DNA of 41,869 nucleotides from the NCBI GenBank assembly GCA_020054685.1, contig JAHXBS010000021.1, positions 16,208 through 58,076 on the forward strand, written 5' to 3'. The number at the start of each line of letters is the position of its first letter. The first letter of the stretch is position 1. The notes below the pieces were generated by a model that saw only the letters and a program-made list of their open reading frames with translations, ran no database searches and had not been told where the DNA came from. This DNA is from Rickettsiales bacterium (GTDB taxonomy: Bacteria > Pseudomonadota > Alphaproteobacteria > Rickettsiales > UBA1997). This document shows positions 3-26,552 of the stretch, in pieces. The position numbers and the translations under genes were made by a program.

Positions 3-1154
3 ATATTATTAAGCGCTAAAAAAAAGGGAGCTCAAATTATATGCGATATTGAGCTATTTTTTTCTTTAAATAACAAGCAAAATTATATTGCTATTACAGG
101 AACTAATGGCAAATCAACATGTAGCGCACTAACTTATCACATATTAAATGAACTTAATATAAATTGCCAAATAGGTGGCAATATTGGTATACCAATATTT
201 GATTTAACACAAGATAAAAACCAAAATATTAACTACATATTAGAAATATCATCCTATCAACTTGATTTAATTGCTAATTGTAAATTTAATATTGCCGCAA
301 TTACAAATATCGATTTTGACCATATAGAAAGATATAAAAATATTGAAAATTATACAAAATCCAAAAAACAAATTTTTAATCATCAAGCAAGTAATGATTA
401 TGCAATTTTCAACATAGATAACAAAATATCTAATAATCTTTATCAAGATTTTATAAATAAAAATAATCAAAATATATTAGCTATATCAAATAATAAAGTT
501 ACAAATGATGCAATTTCATTAGTAAATAATAATATTCATGTTAAATATAAGTCACATGACCTATCTTTTGCAATAAACTCAAAATATCTTATAGGTAAGC
601 ATAATACAGAAAATATATTATTATCATTTTCAGTTGTTTTTTGCTACTTATTACAACAAAATATAGCAATTAATATTGCTATGCCAAAAATAATAACAGC
701 AATTAATAATTTTAAAGGGCTAAAACATAGGCTTGAATATATTGGTAATATTAATAATATAAAATTTTATAATGATAGCAAAGCTACCAATGCCCAATCA
801 ACTAAATGTGCCTTAGAATCGCTTGATAATATCTACTGGATTGTTGGCGGCAAAGAAAAAGGCGATGATCTATTATTGCTAAAGCCATTTTTTCATAAGG
901 TTAAAAAAGCTTATTTAATAGGAAGTTCTGCAAATAAATTCTCTAGCATTTTTAAGCAAAATGGTGTAAAATATATATTATGCAATATTTTAGAAACTGC
1001 TACAAAAAAAGCACTATTTGATGCAAAAAATGATAGCTTATCACAAAATACCATTTTACTATCTCCAGCATGCGCTTCTTTTGATCAGTGGCAAAATTTT
1101 GAGCAGCGAGGAAATGCTTTTTGTAAAATATTTAATGATTTATCAAAAAATTAA
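3..1154 (+). CDS. murD: UDP-N-acetylmuramoylalanine--D-glutamate ligase, 5'-truncated by window edge
   Basis: MurD adds D-glutamate to UDP-MurNAc-L-Ala in the cytoplasmic stage of peptidoglycan synthesis. The frame is open from position 3, so the true start lies before the window. About 383 C-terminal residues are present of roughly 450 usual for the family. Visible landmarks in order are a KKKGAQIICDIELF stretch, the ATP-binding loop ITGTNGKST, EISSYQLD, the Mur-ligase signature HRLEYIG...NDSKATNAQST, and a C-terminal SPACASFDQWQNFEQRG block. These fit MurD better than MurC, MurE or MurF. The ATG at 681 is an internal methionine, not the start. The next gene's only sensible start overlaps this stop region by 20 bp, so the two are probably co-transcribed. 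In many bacteria ftsW and murG follow murD; here they do not. Confidence 0.95.
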   Translation: MLLSAKKKGAQIICDIELFFSLNNKQNYIAITGTNGKSTCSALTYHILNELNINCQIGGNIGIPIFDLTQDKNQNINYILEISSYQLDLIANCKFNIAAITNIDFDHIERYKNIENYTKSKKQIFNHQASNDYAIFNIDNKISNNLYQDFINKNNQNILAISNNKVTNDAISLVNNNIHVKYKSHDLSFAINSKYLIGKHNTENILLSFSVVFCYLLQQNIAINIAMPKIITAINNFKGLKHRLEYIGNINNIKFYNDSKATNAQSTKCALESLDNIYWIVGGKEKGDDLLLLKPFFHKVKKAYLIGSSANKFSSIFKQNGVKYILCNILETATKKALFDAKNDSLSQNTILLSPACASFDQWQNFEQRGNAFCKIFNDLSKN

Positions 1155-2439
1155 ATATAATTATTTTTTTTACACACAGTTAAAAATCTTAACAAACAAT
1201 CTTGCCTATAAATATATTCTACCTTTTTTTAGAATTATACCTCTAATATTAATAATAAATATCGCATTAAATAACCCATTAAATGCTGCCACTACCACTA
1301 ATTGTAAAGATATAGATAGCCCAATACATGGAGAAAATTGTTTATTTAGCATTAATAATAAAATACTACCATTATGTAATAGCTATAGAGGTGCTAATGT
1401 CAATCCTAGCAATATATTAGCCGGATCTAAAATAGATCCAAGAGTCAATTGCATGAATTTATCCGATCTTCCATTATGCAATAATAAAGACTTTGGATCT
1501 GATGATGTTGGTAAAAAATGTGTTAGAATCTGCTCAGAGATTCCTGAGCCTGATAAGAAAAATGGTAAAATAAGAGGTGTTCATTATGCGGTTCATGATA
1601 AGGATTGCGTTCGATTATGCTCGCAAACAGAGTCACAATTCACATTAAGTAAAGACCCTAATGATGGCTATTGCAAAGCGGTACCATTTTGTCATCAGCA
1701 GGAAGATCCCAAATCCAATGATGGTAGCTGCCTTAATTTATCTTGTATAAATTTATCTAAGGAAGAATTAAATAATGAAAAATTCGCAACATATGACAAA
1801 AGAAGTTTTTGTGATGGAGCTAAAAATAAATGCTATGAATTCTTAGAAGAGCAACTTCCTTATCTCTATGCAAGAAGAGAAAATAATAGAATGTGCCTAC
1901 TTCATGAATGTCCACCCTCTTCTATAATATGCGGTAAAGGTTTTAATAATATAGATGAAGAGGCAATAATTACCAGTAAGGGTAGTCAGTTTAAATCAAA
2001 ATATAAAGAGCATATTCTTAAGAAAAGTGAATTTTACGAAATATGCCTACCAAATATATCATGCCTACCATATCAATTAACACAGCATAGATGTAGCAAA
2101 AGTGACTCGGACTACACTCCTGACTCCTTATGTAAAATTAAAGATATTGCTACAACTTCTTACTCAAATAAATGTAATAATGAAAATAAATGTCTTAAAG
2201 CCTCAAGAGATTGTTATACTAATGTAAATTACAATCCTGATGAATGTGAACTTTCTTGCAATGACTCAATACCTCATGAAGAATGCCAATTTTATCCTCA
2301 ATGCGATATAGAAAGTGAAGATGATGATACAAAATTTTGTAATGGATTTGAAAAAATGCAATTATCAACATCAACTTCGACTAGTAATCAACAAGATGAA
2401 GAAAGCTCCACTGAAGACAAATATGATTCATGGTTTTAG
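1135..2439 (+). CDS. secreted cysteine-rich protein, N-terminal part (ends at in-frame TAG)
   Basis: I do not recognise this protein. The frame runs back into murD, but only ATG codons at 1114 and 1135 are plausible starts, and no ATG, GTG or TTG lies between 1135 and the hydrophobic segment. The ATG at 1135 gives 434 residues. The N-terminus has a basic region, then a hydrophobic stretch around ILPFFRIIPLILIINIAL, then a likely signal peptidase site near NPLNA/ATTTNC. The exported part carries about 30 cysteines in roughly 390 residues, with recurring small patterns such as LPLCN (twice), CVRICS and CVRLCS. This suggests a disulfide-rich extracytoplasmic protein. It ends in an acidic Ser/Thr linker at TAG 2437-2439. 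The same frame reopens at once and runs to 7500, so this is probably the 5' part of one interrupted gene. Confidence 0.72.
   Translation: MIYQKIKYNYFFYTQLKILTNNLAYKYILPFFRIIPLILIINIALNNPLNAATTTNCKDIDSPIHGENCLFSINNKILPLCNSYRGANVNPSNILAGSKIDPRVNCMNLSDLPLCNNKDFGSDDVGKKCVRICSEIPEPDKKNGKIRGVHYAVHDKDCVRLCSQTESQFTLSKDPNDGYCKAVPFCHQQEDPKSNDGSCLNLSCINLSKEELNNEKFATYDKRSFCDGAKNKCYEFLEEQLPYLYARRENNRMCLLHECPPSSIICGKGFNNIDEEAIITSKGSQFKSKYKEHILKKSEFYEICLPNISCLPYQLTQHRCSKSDSDYTPDSLCKIKDIATTSYSNKCNNENKCLKASRDCYTNVNYNPDECELSCNDSIPHEECQFYPQCDIESEDDDTKFCNGFEKMQLSTSTSTSNQQDEESSTEDKYDSWF
2437..2439 (+). other. in-frame amber codon splitting one long reading frame
   Basis: The frame starting at 1135 meets TAG here, directly after codons for Trp-Phe. 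Reading on in the same frame gives Leu-Pro-Lys-Pro-His-Glu and stays open to 7500. A single C-to-T change (CAG to TAG) would account for it. TAG is an ordinary stop elsewhere in the window (ends of priA, msrBA, selO, thiC, pntB), so codon reassignment is not supported. Recent mutation, sequence error or stop readthrough remain possible. Confidence 0.8.
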
Positions 2440-2478
2440 CTGCCAAAACCTCATGAAAAATCTTACAAAAATAATACA

Positions 2479-5400
2479 GTGCCACCAGTAACAGACTATG
2501 GTAGCTATATTAATCAATATAGACTAATGAAGCATGATCAAAAAGATTCTGATCCAGATCAAATTCATAACATATGCTATGAAAAGCAAGATCTTAAAGA
2601 TAATAATTGGGGTGATACATCGCAGCCTTTTAATTTATATTGGCACGCATATTGGATTAAAGGCAAAGCAAGAGTTCCTGGCAAATGTACAACCAGTTCC
2701 TCAAAGATGCATGGCTTTAGAGGAAATGGCTATACTTATCTTTGTGGTACTGGTCATTTATATGGTAAAGCTAGTAATCAAACTGCATATTTTAAAGGAT
2801 ATGTCAAGCCATATTTTAGCGATAATCTAGATGAAGAAGAATATTATACTGAAGTGTGCGTAAGATATAATAATTCTATGATACCTCTTAGAAGTTGCGG
2901 TAAAAGAGAATGTGGTATCACTTATCTATTTAATTCATTTGCTGGAAATGTTTGCGGCTCAGATGTTTGCAAAACCTTAAAAATAAAAAGAGGAGCAAAA
3001 GAAGAAAAAAAATGTCACATATCTCAGAGCAATGAAGATGATCTTTTTTACAGCTGGAAACATCGGGAAGAAGGCTATGAATGTGCTAAAGATATAGATA
3101 ATGATGTTAGAATTAGAACTGTAAAATATGGAAATTACATTTGCGCCTTCCTAGATCATAAAGGTCAATTAGCTTACACAAATAAAAATAGATTTTCTCC
3201 TTTCAGAACCACAGGAAACTTTTTTAAAGCTATAGATAATAAATTAAGTCAAAAATTCTGCATGTCTGGAGAATTAAATTCCAGTAAAGATGGATGCATT
3301 AACACTGTTCCCGGCAATCAAAGTAAAGGCTTGGCTGATGTTTGGAGAAATTTTCTACAAGTTCAATTTATCGAAGAAGATTTTTATCAAAAAAATATTA
3401 ATAAATTACGTAAAAAATCGCTATGTGTTCCTATTGAACTTAGAACCGATCCACCAAGAGCGCCTTCAATTGCAACACGTGAAAATGCGCCTAGACTTTT
3501 TTTACCCACTATTAGCATAACAAAAATATTTAACCAAATAGGAGGAAGTGAAATAAGACAAAATCAAGCTACTGATTTCTTTAAGCCTTCAATTGAAGTA
3601 ACAATGAAGAGTTCTAATGATCAAATTTCAAAAATACTCAGCCTTGACATAAATCAAGATATTATAGACACAACTTTAAAAGTTGATTTTATGGATCGAG
3701 ATTATGAAGAATTAATAAAAATTAAAAAAGTAATTAACTATATCAATAAACAACCTCAATTATGCCTTTATAAAACTAAAATAGAAGATAGTAAATCAAA
3801 AGATATAAAAATAAAATGTATTAATAGAAAATATCCAGAAATTAAAAAAACAAAATATGATAATCCGCAAATTATTGAAATGCCAATCATAGAAGCGAAT
3901 ATTCAGTCTGGATTTAACCCAGGAAAAATTGAAACATATGAAAATTTCAAAATGAATTTTCAGCTGCAATCTCTTCATAATAATCAAAGAACTAATCAAG
4001 TTCAATTAGGATTACCTAAAAATATTCTTAGCCTCAACTCTTCTTGCGCCACTATTGAGGGTGTAAAATTCTGCGCCAAGAGAGAAGAATGTAGTCAATT
4101 TGAGCTCGAATATATCCAAAATGAATTTACGATACATGATAAAAAATTAGAAAATGAACCCATAGATAAGGAATATGACATCAGACAAAGTTTTATCGCT
4201 AATCTGCAAATTAAATGCGATAGAAAAAAGGGTATTATTAAAGATGTCAATACTCAAAATATTATAACAAGTGAATATACTAGAAATCATGCCTATGGCT
4301 GGTTTAATGAAGTATGTATTGCTACTGGCTATGAAAATAAATTAAAATTAGTAATATCTCGTAAATTAGATGATGGTATCACAGGGAAATGTATTATAGA
4401 CGACACAATCTCAGATCCAAATTTATGCTTTGAGGGTGGCAACCCTATGAAAGGCTGCTATTGCAAGGAATATACAATGCAAGATATTGACGACAACACA
4501 AAAATTATCAGAAAACAAACATACAGAGAGGCAGGATTATGTATTGATATACCTAAAATTAATAGATGTGGTCCAATAAGATTTACCGATAGAGCTTATA
4601 ATGAGGATGATCAATATTACACATATAGCTCTCTTAATAAATATCGAGATAGCAATACTATAGATGGATATAGTAACGAAATAGGAGTTAACTCATTTCA
4701 TCAAAAAAGAACATCAGGAATTAATACAGATGGTATTATAAATAGAGCTGATTTTCCAGTCTCTTATGGTGGCATGACCCAAGTTAGCGGTTCATGTAAT
4801 GGTTTTTGGAAAGAGCAGGCTGTTAGTCCAAAAGCTGATTGCGAATTAAATATTGGAAGCTCATCTGGCGATTACTATAATTTTACCGACCAATGCATCA
4901 GATATAGCTGCCCAGCTATAAACCCAGGAGAGCCTGATGAAAAAGATGATTATATTTTAGATCGATATTTCACATTAGGCGATAATAATAGTGAAGAAAA
5001 AGGAAGAAGATATGGTTTTGCTTATTGGCCTTCCTTAGAAAAAAATATCTTAAGTGATTTTCCAGAATCTAATAATGCATCATCATGTATAACTGGCTTT
5101 ATGGCTCAAAATGCTAATTATATTTCAACTAATAAAGCTATAATAGATCCTAATAATCCAGATAATTTTGATCAATTAGCCGATTTATCAAATTATAGCG
5201 AATTAGCAGGCTATCAAACAAAAAATATGGATAAGAAAGATCAAATGAAAGAAAAAGGCAATTTTGCCACAGATGAGATATTTGACGAACCTTCATTATC
5301 AATGCCTACTCTTGATTGCAATCAAAGAGGTAGTTATTTCTTAGATTCTTTACAAAATAAATGTAGCAGAGTTAAATGCTTTATTAAAGATCCTCCTGAG

Positions 5401-7500
5401 CTACTTGGCTTAGATATACAAGACATTGAAAATTCATTTAGAATTTGGGTTCAAAATGGTGGCGCATTATTCACACCAGCAAGAATTAATTCTAACATTA
5501 ATGATGAGGACCCAAATCAAAATGATGAAACAAATGTGCAAATTAAAAATGTTGCTGAAATATCAGATCAAGGCCATGAAAATAATGTATTTATTGACGA
5601 AAATAATAATCATTACGCCCTAGCATCAAGAAGCTCTTCAAGAATTCAAGATTTATCTATAATTACTGGTGAATGCTCTAATGATAAGGGCTTCTTCCAG
5701 ATAGGAAGTGTTGCACCATATAGAACATGCGATCATCTTGGTAATTTATCAGAAGTTAAAAATAAATGCGCCACTAGATGCAATCAAGTTGTAGAAAATC
5801 CTCGAGATATCAGACAACTTAAAACAGACGAATCTCATAGCAATGCTCTTTGGGATGAAACAGATGCAGTAGATGATCCAGAATTAGTTATTTCATCTAG
5901 ATGTAAGTCAGGTCATATAAAATATCCATATCCACCAATGAGAAATGATATGGGAGAATATTATAAATTTAGATATTCGCCATCAACAACAATAAATAAT
6001 TTAATTGAAAACACTGACGTAACTAATGAAATAATGCCATTTAATGTAAAGGACGATACAAGAACAATAAATAACACTCCTATTAGAAATTGCAAACCAA
6101 TTAAAATTGCAGGAACCAATAATCAAGCCACTATTTGGACTAGGCCAGATAGTGATTGCATTAATAGCTGCCCTGGATTTGAGCAAGATCCAAGGCAGAA
6201 TGTTGGATTAACTCTTCATCCATATTCAACTAACTCAAATCAGCAAATTTTCAATAGTACTGTGAAAGAATTATTTGGTAATAATATTATTGCAATTAAA
6301 TGGAGTAAAACCAATTTAGGCCAATGGCAACATATTCAAGGCTCTGGTCCTTTAGATACTAGCAGACAAGCTAACTTGGATAATCAAAGTGCACAAAATT
6401 ATACCCCTTCATCATCTCTATCATATTCTATTAGCAGAAGATGTGGAGAAAATGGTAAATGGGAGGATCCTATTATAAATTGCGTTGCCAAAGGATTTGA
6501 TGATAAAGATAAAATTGATGGAACTAATGCTATATATTCTGCCCCTTCTGGAAGCTCAGGAAGACTTCCAGCTGGTCAAACAATATCCACAGGAAATTGC
6601 ATTGCCAATTTTTATAGATCAGGCGCTACCAACTTTAATAGCCCCAATAAAGATAAATCAACTATACCTATTACATGCACCGCAAACCAAAATGGCTATA
6701 TTGACAAATATTATTTTAACAAAGGTAGTGGAGAATATTGTGTAGCAAAATGCAGAGGACCAGGTAAAAACTACCCTACAGGAGCGGGATCAACTACAGG
6801 ACAAATTGACTATAGTAATAATTTTTACACTGAAAATGAGGTAATTGACCTTGCCTGCCATAATAATTATGGTAATAAACATGGCACATCTACAAGTAGC
6901 ATAGCCAAAGATGTTTATTACAGATGTGGTAAACCAGAAAAAATACCCAAAGGAAATCTTTTCTCTTTTTTTCCAAAAGAGCTAGTTGATTACAATATCG
7001 ATAGATCAACTAGAGTACCATATATCATTTGCCAAAATAATGGTTTATGGTCTGGCGTTAAAGAAGATTGCACTAAATGTCGTGATTGCACAATAGGTAG
7101 CGAACTTAGTAAAAAACATCCAGGGGGATTTACGTTTTACGCCTATCACTATTTTAACGCCAATAATTTACATTCAGATTGCGCAAGAGTTAATAGTGAA
7201 AGACGATATCCTTCCGATAGATCATATTCTCTTAATTTAGGAGATGGCAATTCGGCGACAGTTTCAAGTGGTAGCTCTGGTGGCCCAGTATGCAGATATA
7301 TAACCATAAAGGATCGTCCTTCACTTGGAAAACAAGACTATAATAGTATGAGCTTTTGGTATTCTTGTGTCGATGGAGACTTAAGGCATGATTTTATTAA
7401 TGATAAGGTTGGTCAAAATGATGCCTGTGATGGTGATAATTGGGATTGGTCTGAGGAGCATGAACAATGTCATTCTGGAGCAGAGTGGTTGCCAAATTAA
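2479..7500 (+). CDS. giant cysteine-rich extracytoplasmic protein, C-terminal part
   Basis: Function is not recognised. The frame is open from 2440, right after the TAG. The first possible starts are GTG 2479 and ATG 2527, and neither has a clear ribosome binding site or signal peptide. From 2479 it is 1673 residues; joined to the upstream part the product would be about 2120. It has dozens of cysteines and no evident membrane span, so it should be exported to fold, which is hard to explain unless it is read with the upstream signal peptide. Towards the C-terminus it repeats a pattern of Cys, a few residues, Asn-Gly-x-Trp, then Cys (RRCGENGKWEDPIINC; YIICQNNGLWSGVKEDC), reminiscent of the end of complement-control (sushi) modules. 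The middle (about 3500-4020) is cysteine-poor. purE follows 21 bp after the stop. Confidence 0.72.
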   Translation: MPPVTDYGSYINQYRLMKHDQKDSDPDQIHNICYEKQDLKDNNWGDTSQPFNLYWHAYWIKGKARVPGKCTTSSSKMHGFRGNGYTYLCGTGHLYGKASNQTAYFKGYVKPYFSDNLDEEEYYTEVCVRYNNSMIPLRSCGKRECGITYLFNSFAGNVCGSDVCKTLKIKRGAKEEKKCHISQSNEDDLFYSWKHREEGYECAKDIDNDVRIRTVKYGNYICAFLDHKGQLAYTNKNRFSPFRTTGNFFKAIDNKLSQKFCMSGELNSSKDGCINTVPGNQSKGLADVWRNFLQVQFIEEDFYQKNINKLRKKSLCVPIELRTDPPRAPSIATRENAPRLFLPTISITKIFNQIGGSEIRQNQATDFFKPSIEVTMKSSNDQISKILSLDINQDIIDTTLKVDFMDRDYEELIKIKKVINYINKQPQLCLYKTKIEDSKSKDIKIKCINRKYPEIKKTKYDNPQIIEMPIIEANIQSGFNPGKIETYENFKMNFQLQSLHNNQRTNQVQLGLPKNILSLNSSCATIEGVKFCAKREECSQFELEYIQNEFTIHDKKLENEPIDKEYDIRQSFIANLQIKCDRKKGIIKDVNTQNIITSEYTRNHAYGWFNEVCIATGYENKLKLVISRKLDDGITGKCIIDDTISDPNLCFEGGNPMKGCYCKEYTMQDIDDNTKIIRKQTYREAGLCIDIPKINRCGPIRFTDRAYNEDDQYYTYSSLNKYRDSNTIDGYSNEIGVNSFHQKRTSGINTDGIINRADFPVSYGGMTQVSGSCNGFWKEQAVSPKADCELNIGSSSGDYYNFTDQCIRYSCPAINPGEPDEKDDYILDRYFTLGDNNSEEKGRRYGFAYWPSLEKNILSDFPESNNASSCITGFMAQNANYISTNKAIIDPNNPDNFDQLADLSNYSELAGYQTKNMDKKDQMKEKGNFATDEIFDEPSLSMPTLDCNQRGSYFLDSLQNKCSRVKCFIKDPPELLGLDIQDIENSFRIWVQNGGALFTPARINSNINDEDPNQNDETNVQIKNVAEISDQGHENNVFIDENNNHYALASRSSSRIQDLSIITGECSNDKGFFQIGSVAPYRTCDHLGNLSEVKNKCATRCNQVVENPRDIRQLKTDESHSNALWDETDAVDDPELVISSRCKSGHIKYPYPPMRNDMGEYYKFRYSPSTTINNLIENTDVTNEIMPFNVKDDTRTINNTPIRNCKPIKIAGTNNQATIWTRPDSDCINSCPGFEQDPRQNVGLTLHPYSTNSNQQIFNSTVKELFGNNIIAIKWSKTNLGQWQHIQGSGPLDTSRQANLDNQSAQNYTPSSSLSYSISRRCGENGKWEDPIINCVAKGFDDKDKIDGTNAIYSAPSGSSGRLPAGQTISTGNCIANFYRSGATNFNSPNKDKSTIPITCTANQNGYIDKYYFNKGSGEYCVAKCRGPGKNYPTGAGSTTGQIDYSNNFYTENEVIDLACHNNYGNKHGTSTSSIAKDVYYRCGKPEKIPKGNLFSFFPKELVDYNIDRSTRVPYIICQNNGLWSGVKEDCTKCRDCTIGSELSKKHPGGFTFYAYHYFNANNLHSDCARVNSERRYPSDRSYSLNLGDGNSATVSSGSSGGPVCRYITIKDRPSLGKQDYNSMSFWYSCVDGDLRHDFINDKVGQNDACDGDNWDWSEEHEQCHSGAEWLPN

Positions 7501-7521: not shown

Positions 7522-7995
7522 ATGACAATATCAATAATAATGGGGTCTAAATCAGATCTTGAAATAATGCAAAAATCAGGTGAAATGCTTGATCAATTTG
7601 GAGTTAAATATGAAATAAAGATTGTTTCTGCTCATCGTACTCCTGATAGGCTTTATAAATTTTGTCAAAATGCTAAAGAAAATGGCACTAAAATTATCAT
7701 TGCTGGCGCTGGAGGTGCTGCGCATCTTCCTGGCATGGCGGCAGCAATTACGGATCTTCCAGTTTTAGGGGTACCAACTAAGAGCAAGGCTCTTGATGGC
7801 ATAGACTCCTTATTATCCATTGCTCAAATGCCTGCTGGCATTCCTGTTGCCACTCTTGCTATTGGTGAGGCTGGCGCTAAAAATGCTGCTTTAATGGCAA
7901 TAGCAATTTTAGCATTAAATGACAATAATTTAGCGCAAAAACTTCAAGATTTTCGCCAAAAACAAACAGAATCAGTGCCTTTTGATATTAAATAA
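7522..7995 (+). CDS. purE: N5-carboxyaminoimidazole ribonucleotide mutase
   Basis: PurE converts N5-CAIR to CAIR in de novo purine synthesis in the cytoplasm. The 157-residue product is the normal size for class I PurE. It shows the N-terminal [12 protein letters not shown] nucleotide-binding motif, the SAHRTPDRL motif with the active-site histidine near residue 38, the [11 protein letters not shown] loop, and the [19 protein letters not shown] block. The ATG is preceded by a 21-bp gap from the giant cysteine-rich gene. Its TAA shares one base with the ATG of the next gene (TAATG), which suggests translational coupling. purK, the usual partner, is not in the window. Purine synthesis argues against a Rickettsia proper, which lacks it. 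Confidence 0.96.
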
Positions 7996-17864: not shown

Positions 17865-19445
17865 ATGACCATAAAAGAAGATTGCCTTAAAGATAAAGAC
17901 ACTGAATGTGAAAAATCACAAGTTTTAGCAGCAGAAGAATGTAAAGCCTTAGGAGACTTTGACAAAATCGATCAATGCATTTTAGATGCAAAAGAAGAGT
18001 CAGAGAGGTGTAAAGATCAAGCTGAAAGGGATTGCGAAACTCAAGATACCACAATAGTAGGACCGCAAGCTACTACTCCACCACCTACAGAAGATACCAC
18101 AATAGTACGACCGGAAACTCCTGCTCCACCACCTACAGAAAATAATGCTACAAAAATTACTGATCATTGCTATATTATTATTGGTGATAATTGCCAAGGA
18201 AATCTAGATAAAGAAATAACGTCACTTGCATCTTATGATAATTGTATTGCTGCACAAAACTCTTATAATACAGATCAAAAATATAATGAATTGATAAAAT
18301 TAGGTGTTACATCAACTATATCCAGCAACCAAAAAAATTTACATCTTATTTGCCCTGTTCCCACTCAAGAAGAAAAATGTGAAATTATTCTAGATTGCAA
18401 AGATACTACTAAAGAATTAGAAGATGCTTTAAATAATCTTTCCGGAAGCTGTCAAGATGTAGAAAAAACTTTTAAAAACCTTGATAATACGGATATTTTG
18501 AAAAAAAATGGCAATTTAAGATTATATAATAATTCCTTAGAATATATATGTGATAAACCTATTGACACAGAAGTAGATTCTTCTAAAGGTGGTGGGCTAC
18601 CTATAGGATCTATTATTGGTATTGTTTCTGTGGCTTTAGTTCTAACTGGTATTGGATTTTACTTCCATAAACAACAAAAGAAAAAGAATAAAGATGCGGC
18701 ACTGCCAACAGGTGAAGCAGAAACACCAAAACATAAAATTGTTTTTAGCGCAAGATCGCCCGAAGAATCAACTGGTACACCTCCACCCCCTGGAGTATCA
18801 GTAAAAAGAAGATTTAGGTTTAACGATGTTCTAGTCCTTAGTTCTGCTAGAATAATATTAAAGCAATATGATATGGGTGAAGGAGAACAAGAAAAAGAAG
18901 ATATGGGTGAAGGAGAACAAGAAAAAAAAGCTGCTGAAAAAGTATTATTGAAACTAGGAGATCGCCCCCCCGAACAACAACCTATATCTTCAACTACAAC
19001 ACCTGAACAAGAAGGTCCAATGGGTGCTGCTGGTGGTGGTGCAGTAGATCACGGTGATAAACTTCATAAATTAGGACCAGCCTCTCCTGATAATCCGGTG
19101 CAATTACATAAAGATGATGATGATAAAATTCCAGATGATGTAAAAAAATGCCTGGAAGAAATAATTTCAAAATTAGAAGAGGATTTGATAGATACAACAC
19201 CTATGATAACACCACCAAATCAAGAATTAGTATCAACCATACTACCACCTGGTAAACCGAAGCAGAAAGTCGTCGGGCAAGAAAGTGATGATAGTCAACG
19301 TGCTGCACGTGATTTTTGGGGAAGAATAGATCGTGAAGCTGGTAAAGGTAACACTTTAGAATTTACAACAACACCACAAGCATCGCCAACTAAATCATCA
19401 TCAGCAGCAGTGTCACCAGGCATGAGTGGTGGACATCAAGTTTGA
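17865..19445 (+). CDS. single-span membrane protein with cysteine-rich N-domain and disordered tail
   Basis: Not recognised. Of 526 residues, 1-60 are charged with paired cysteines. Residues 61-92 are a Pro/Thr linker made of two near-identical units. Residues 100-240 are a second cysteine-containing region (HCYIIIGDNC; CEIILDC; GSCQDVEK). Residues about 245-267 are one transmembrane helix (IGSIIGIVSVALVLTGIGF) followed by HKQQKKKNKD. The last 250 or so residues are Pro, Gly, Glu and Gln rich and probably disordered. No N-terminal signal peptide is seen. The positive charges after the helix and the cysteines before it suggest an N-out, C-in topology, so export could rely on the internal helix. 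The TGA touches the 3' end of tRNA-Phe with no spacer. The function is open; a secreted or surface factor is only a guess. Confidence 0.72.
   Translation: MTIKEDCLKDKDTECEKSQVLAAEECKALGDFDKIDQCILDAKEESERCKDQAERDCETQDTTIVGPQATTPPPTEDTTIVRPETPAPPPTENNATKITDHCYIIIGDNCQGNLDKEITSLASYDNCIAAQNSYNTDQKYNELIKLGVTSTISSNQKNLHLICPVPTQEEKCEIILDCKDTTKELEDALNNLSGSCQDVEKTFKNLDNTDILKKNGNLRLYNNSLEYICDKPIDTEVDSSKGGGLPIGSIIGIVSVALVLTGIGFYFHKQQKKKNKDAALPTGEAETPKHKIVFSARSPEESTGTPPPPGVSVKRRFRFNDVLVLSSARIILKQYDMGEGEQEKEDMGEGEQEKKAAEKVLLKLGDRPPEQQPISSTTTPEQEGPMGAAGGGAVDHGDKLHKLGPASPDNPVQLHKDDDDKIPDDVKKCLEEIISKLEEDLIDTTPMITPPNQELVSTILPPGKPKQKVVGQESDDSQRAARDFWGRIDREAGKGNTLEFTTTPQASPTKSSSAAVSPGMSGGHQV
18043..18138 (+). 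repeat. two tandem 48-bp coding repeats (Pro/Thr linker)
   Basis: Two 48-bp units (18043-18090 and 18091-18138) encode closely similar 16-residue segments beginning DTTIV and ending PPPTE. The reading frame is kept. This looks like recent tandem duplication in a linker and may vary in copy number between strains. Confidence 0.85.
18870..18929 (+). repeat. two tandem 30-bp coding repeats (DMGEGEQEK)
   Basis: Units at 18870-18899 and 18900-18929 are almost identical and each encode a ten-residue acidic unit containing DMGEGEQEK. They lie in the disordered tail of the single-span membrane protein and keep the frame. Confidence 0.85.
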
Positions 19446-25469: not shown

Positions 25470-26552
25470 TTATGCATCAATGGATCGTTCTGCCTGACCT
25501 CTTTGATCAAGAGGCTGAAGTTCGATAACTCCGTTCCTTCGACTCATTTCCACATCAGGAACCGGAGCAACATCTAATCCATGATCGATTGAACCCATTA
25601 TACCACTACAAATATTGCTATATTCAGTAATCATCAAAAACATTACACTAGACATTGAAGCTATAGCAGAAACTGCTAGGAAAAACTGAGCTTCTGCCTT
25701 ATTTTTTTCAATAACATTACTATATTCGGGTTCTACTAACGTCAATTCTGGAAAATTTTCAGAATTAACTACATTAGTTTCTTCATTTTCATCACCAAGC
25801 AATTTCTTAAAAATAGAAAAATAAAGCATGGAAGCAAGAGTAATTGATAACCCTAAAGATCTTATATCTCTTCCTATATCTCTTTCACGCGTGTTATCAA
25901 CTATTAAAAAAAAATCAATAAAAGATGAAAAAGACGATCCAAAAAAAAGCAAGCCATTTAAAAAAGGATTTGGAAAAAAAGAACATATTAGCCCAGGAAA
26001 TTCATTTAAACTCTTCTCAAAATCATCTAAAATTATATCATCGCATTCTATTTCATTCCCTTCAATACCATCACAATCCGAATCTCTCTTGCATTCATAT
26101 GATTTCATCAGCGCTATAAATGATCGAGGATATTTGGGAGCATTACCATCATCATTAATTATTTCAGCCCTATGCTTAATAATCGAACACCTTAATTCTT
26201 GTGTGCACAAAGCATAACTATCTTCTATGTTATCTATTTTATCTCCTTTTGGATAATTAGAGCATGCTTCATCTCCATGATTATCATATTCAACACAGCT
26301 ATTTATATACTCTATTATAGCCGATTTTTTGTTAGGATTAATTTTCCCATCATTATGATAGCCATCACCATTACAATATATTAGATTAAAAAAATTTTCA
26401 AATTTTGATTCTGGGTTACCATTTACTACTCTCCCAATACCACTATTAAAATAACTTTCAGCATTAGAAACTGCGCAATTTTTCATATTCGCTGCCGACC
26501 AAGTACCTACTTTAAGTGAAAAAGAAGTAGTTAAAGCAACAAGCCCTATCAA
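25470..26552 (-). CDS. unrecognised cysteine-containing multi-span membrane protein, 5' end doubtful
   Basis: I recognise no family. The frame allows a TTG start at 26552, just after an in-frame stop, giving 360 residues; the first ATG would be at 26486. The N-terminus (about 1-20) looks like part of a signal peptide or membrane anchor. Residues about 25-180 are polar, with many cysteines and acidic pairs (KRDSDCDGIEGNEIECDD). Three hydrophobic segments follow at about 186-217, 232-252 and 289-309, then a polar tail ending RGQAERSIDA. The layout suggests an exported cysteine-rich domain in front of membrane helices. The weak start sits about 15 bp from a duplicated tRNA-Gln end, so the original 5' end may have been lost or replaced by an integration event. 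Confidence 0.6.
   Translation of the reverse strand: MIGLVALTTSFSLKVGTWSAANMKNCAVSNAESYFNSGIGRVVNGNPESKFENFFNLIYCNGDGYHNDGKINPNKKSAIIEYINSCVEYDNHGDEACSNYPKGDKIDNIEDSYALCTQELRCSIIKHRAEIINDDGNAPKYPRSFIALMKSYECKRDSDCDGIEGNEIECDDIILDDFEKSLNEFPGLICSFFPNPFLNGLLFFGSSFSSFIDFFLIVDNTRERDIGRDIRSLGLSITLASMLYFSIFKKLLGDENEETNVVNSENFPELTLVEPEYSNVIEKNKAEAQFFLAVSAIASMSSVMFLMITEYSNICSGIMGSIDHGLDVAPVPDVEMSRRNGVIELQPLDQRGQAERSIDA

Follow-up and report, generated by a model that had tools for sequence, protein, structure and literature searches.

The frame at 1135-7500 (forward strand) of the stretch of DNA analysed here ('the window', 41.9 kb in all) is a single giant gene, continuous in relatives at the very site where it is interrupted here by one in-frame TAG codon, and the interruption is probably a recent, real nonsense allele through which a truncated fragment would be exported and the full protein lost. 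The frame comprises 2,121 codons and is open but for the TAG at 2437-2439 (forward strand), which divides it into a first part of 434 codons (1135..2439, forward strand), leading from the ATG at 1135 through an N-terminal signal peptide and a cysteine-rich segment to the stop, and a second part of 1,686 codons (2440..7500, forward strand), which harbors 60 cysteines and in which no signal-peptide-bearing start is found. Both parts are in the same phase (frame +1 from ATG 1135), in keeping with the original prediction, which had described two long same-phase frames split only by the TAG.

The downstream frame is not due to chance, because open frames reached at most 130 codons in 300 shuffles of its 5,058 bases, and because the other five reading frames over the same part are rich in stops (90-280). 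Codon-position G+C is equal on either side of the TAG. At its 5' end the gene is anchored by murD (3..1154, forward strand), whose 3' end is overlapped by the giant gene's ATG, and the start region agrees with that of relatives; at its 3' end lies purE (7522..7995, forward strand), the downstream neighbour in most relatives. The reading of murD as a truncated gene (it appears as 681-1154 in the list of open reading frames) was rejected, as murD is open to the window edge, with its 5' end outside the window, and is intact within it. The window is itself part of contig 3 of a 1.31 Mb genome assembled in 37 contigs.

Comparison with relatives, all of them metagenome-assembled genomes of water-dwelling, Rickettsiales-type bacteria (labelled mostly as Alphaproteobacteria, Proteobacteria or Rickettsiales, with a few species names that seem to be misnomers), provided 16 homologous loci. 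The stop site is open in all 16, which bears out the claim of a single gene interrupted by one in-frame TAG. Twelve of these loci contain the gene complete in a single frame, 1,870-2,206 codons long and encoding about 100 cysteines, three more reach a contig end, and the last (L071) is split elsewhere; relatives with two clearly separate genes at this place, which would have spoken against a single gene, were thus not encountered. In most relatives for which the neighbours are covered, the giant gene lies between murD and purE. A broader survey of 47 family genomes found a homolog in 33, with an internal stop only in the window's own genome (G000). That genome contains no second copy of the giant gene, and compensation by a paralog was rejected on the grounds that the gene is single copy. 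Genus g13 and some others have homologs that can be much larger, with up to about 5,300 in-frame codons. One of them (L022:6344-19000, from genome G016 of genus g13) follows directly after murD, has approximately 5,000 codons, of which 4,219 were fetched and encode 132 cysteines, and is very large for such a small genome.

The TAG lies inside a conserved S-W-F-Y-R-P motif (S-W-F-Y-R-P-K-P when extended), in which the corresponding codon encodes tyrosine in 14 of the 16 relatives, histidine in one and asparagine in one, and is a stop in none; the comparison of this codon across related genomes that the original prediction had called for finds the stop in the window alone. The residue after the stop is arginine in 15 of 16 relatives, and leucine both in the remaining one (L064) and in the window. 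A local assembly fault, considered in view of the three differing bases at the site, was set aside, as L064 also has leucine for arginine; because of this shared leucine, the second changed codon may be an ordinary replacement. A search for the site in viral contigs returned no match. In an AlphaFold model of the sister protein, which is weak, confidence is low just before the motif and higher after it, and for that reason the cut may fall between domains, a point that is only suggestive.

Downstream of the TAG, neither further decay nor relaxed constraint is seen. Part 2 has an identity of 0.322 to 11 outgroups, as compared to 0.325 for the intact sister from the same genus (L061); the interval of the BLOSUM difference between the two includes zero, and 54 of 60 conserved cysteine columns are kept in the window versus 56 of 60 in the sister. 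Under neutral drift, approximately 2-3.6 new stops (about 3) would be expected in part 2 for each 1% of divergence, and none was observed. The lack of a further stop limits the time spent without constraint to about 0.8-1.5% divergence, and the conservation of part 2, equal to that of the intact sister, argues that the stop arose within about the last 1% of neutral divergence. An NCBIfam scan of the 20 other window proteins matched 18 over most of their length with no break in any (of the remaining two, one has no model and the other, SurA-like, was matched weakly), so that the lesion appears isolated. Either, then, the stop arose very recently, or it is an error, or readthrough makes it tolerable; this three-way reading was already put forward in the original prediction, and a recent, real nonsense change is judged the likeliest of the three.

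The joined product bears the features of an exported, disulfide-rich protein: it has a signal peptide and conserved cysteines, and the genome supplies Dsb machinery. Its sole strongly hydrophobic 19-mer, at residues 27-45 (score 2.19), is the N-terminal export signal. The best 19-mer within residues 436-640 scores 0.73, from which it follows that part 2 has no signal peptide of its own, as had been supposed when the downstream part was said to lack a convincing start or export signal. Outside the signal the joined product contains about 90 cysteines, 30 of which fall in the cysteine-rich segment of part 1 (about 382 residues), while the 60 counted in part 2 agree with the earlier description of a downstream part as full of cysteines as an exported protein would be. 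Conserved cysteine columns are retained at 25 of 26 and at 54 of 60 positions, and genes for DsbB and DsbA-like proteins (disulfide formation) were found in the window's genome.

On the favoured reading of a recent nonsense allele, the intact gene encodes a disulfide-rich export product of giant size, about 2,100 residues, which would be secreted or displayed at the surface as a chain of small modules stapled by disulfides (and sushi-like in the C-terminal half), would be oxidised by the Dsb system, and may be used in attachment or surface contact. Because translation in the window's strain would stop at codon 434, a truncated product from the N-terminal end, some 382 residues long, would be exported, the other 80% of the protein would either go unmade or fail to be exported, and the strain would have lost the full-length surface protein. 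Bacterial pseudogenes created by a single premature stop (PMC11078800) offer the closest parallel, with one in-frame stop and open orthologs; they differ in that the 5 kb downstream of the window's stop contains no further decay, and the locus would consequently be at the very earliest stage of a pseudogene, or not be a true pseudogene. Against a nonsense allele it must be weighed that the lack of any further lesion also fits an error, or selection acting via readthrough, and that most of the protein is still constrained on a long time scale.

An error of the consensus or the assembly (or a base taken from a minority strain), with the gene intact in the organism, is the rival that survives best, and is on balance unlikely. 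Such an origin is in line with the metagenome-assembled nature of the relatives and the 37 contigs of the window's genome, and with the isolation of the lesion, no other decay having been detected; if the neighbouring change of arginine to leucine is an ordinary replacement, the stop is also a single base away from the usual codon. Nothing else examined in the 41.9 kb appears erroneous, however, and in well-covered short-read assemblies consensus errors are rarer than real nonsense alleles. It is this general knowledge of error rates that underlies the preference for a real allele over an error.

A real TAG that is passed by leaky or programmed readthrough, or that yields two products, so as to provide a useful full-length protein, is considerably less probable. 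It would account for the retained constraint and the lack of a second lesion in part 2, but the conservation test is blind to a very recent change. A precedent of sorts exists in Salmonella, for which low protein expression from pseudogenes is reported, going by the title of a 2022 paper by Feng et al. (cited in PMC11078800). Against it, the stop is found in none of the 16 relatives, and there is thus no conserved readthrough site. The machinery of termination is also in place: no CTA anticodon (that of a UAG-reading tRNA) was found among the 32 tRNA genes of the window's genome (an assembly about 97% complete), and RF1 is present (506 bits), on which basis a suppressor tRNA or recoding was rejected. 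TAG also terminates 6 of the 30 other genes in the window, where the frames beyond remain open for 0-9 codons in five cases and for 42 in the sixth; among these, priA terminates at TAGCTA, near-identical to the TAGCTG at the giant-gene stop, with 4 open codons thereafter. The other TAGs in the window are true terminators and the code is standard, as originally claimed, and the search of the genome for suppressor tRNAs, also proposed at that time, came back negative among those 32 genes. The more specific scheme, in which a real TAG is translated at a functional rate with no dedicated suppressor tRNA, producing a short exported fragment together with a rare full-length giant, seems very improbable. 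If functional readthrough were nevertheless true, it would make the TAG a stop-codon 'switch', specific to this lineage, that acts on a surface structure.

Two separate genes, with the second initiated inside the frame, for instance at GTG 2479, are scarcely credible: although the relative L071 (genome G009) does encode the giant protein as two genes, its cut lies elsewhere and in a different frame, with a clear signal peptide on the second gene, every other relative has a single gene, and a second gene with its own start was rejected in the window for want of a signal peptide in part 2. In L071 the first of the two frames has 933 codons and contains the S-W-F-Y-R-P site, and the second opens some 20 bases downstream in another frame and brings its own signal peptide (MIKKLLKLKFLLFLLIALNTYFNIAGAQ). 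That arrangement looks like a functional, clean gene fission; as part 2 in the window has no such signal, its interruption is not a fission of the same kind. The L071 gene (L071:7752-11340) is also displaced, being located downstream of purE rather than between murD and purE.

The protein family to which the giant gene belongs has no Pfam or NCBIfam model. No family covering the protein emerged from profile searches against Pfam, NCBIfam, PHROGs and PDB, and no description of it was found in the literature. Its C-terminal half contains five modules of the C-x-G-x-W-x-C type, and this repeated motif is shared with sushi/CCP (SCR) proteins (PF00084; complement factor H, CD46, CD55 and Crry) and with the Eph cysteine-rich domain. 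The Pfam Sushi profile (PF00084) scores 11.7 bits, below its cut-off of 20.7; matches to it at E <= 0.1 occur in 4 of 14 family members (the best at 0.011), and Sushi and Ephrin_CRD hits, mostly weak, appear in a few members of the family. When a model of the C-terminal half (mean pLDDT 60) was searched with Foldseek, the best matches were mainly SCR chains (factor H, Crry, CD46, CD55 and PAPP-A) and Eph cysteine-rich domains, all at E >= 0.003; that to EphA2 had a probability of 1.00 and an rmsd of 1.8 over 62 columns, on a low-confidence model. The N-terminal fold model was discarded as too weak (pLDDT 52). With a profile score below the Pfam cut-off, Foldseek E values of 0.003 or weaker and a pLDDT of 60, the C-terminal half may be said to resemble sushi domains, as a consistent lead and not as membership.

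A role in attachment or surface contact would suit such a protein. Putative adhesins and exoproteins have been discussed for extracellular Rickettsiales of the Deianiraea type (PMC10847448, PMC9352585), which are likewise exported, surface-type proteins from the same broad order, with type IV pilus genes (PilT) as a further point in common; the giant family differs from them in being cysteine-rich and in having no Pfam or NCBIfam model, and the two are likened by description, not by sequence.

The type IV pilus gene PilT is present in most of the genomes surveyed; a strict link between the giant gene and type IV pili was not adopted, as genus g4 has no good PilT match and nevertheless contains weak giant homologs, which suggests that type IV pili were lost there without loss of the giant gene. 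Pilin-like genes are found just past purE in two relatives (L018:1-3000 and L017:11311-12309), whose C-terminal ends contain cysteines and look like the C-G-x-W-C modules of the giant, and for a cysteine-rich pilin-like gene near the locus in genome G002 the window's genome gave no match. The window also encodes two further hypothetical proteins, one of 526 residues that has just one membrane segment and carries cysteines in the N-terminal portion (17865-19445), and the other a membrane protein with a cysteine-rich loop (25470-26552).

For the interruption itself a routine cause is the likeliest, either a recent nonsense allele or an error; what it documents is a conserved giant surface-type protein on its way to being lost, or else miscalled, in a small genome, at a locus which annotation pipelines would render as two unrelated hypothetical proteins. 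The greater interest lies in the family, which is single-copy, about 2,000 codons long, provided with about 100 cysteines and situated beside murD in many water-dwelling Rickettsiales-type bacteria, and whose modules look similar to the sushi domains found in complement regulators of animals. The giant protein is a candidate for an attachment or surface structure, in bacteria studied for how host association originated.
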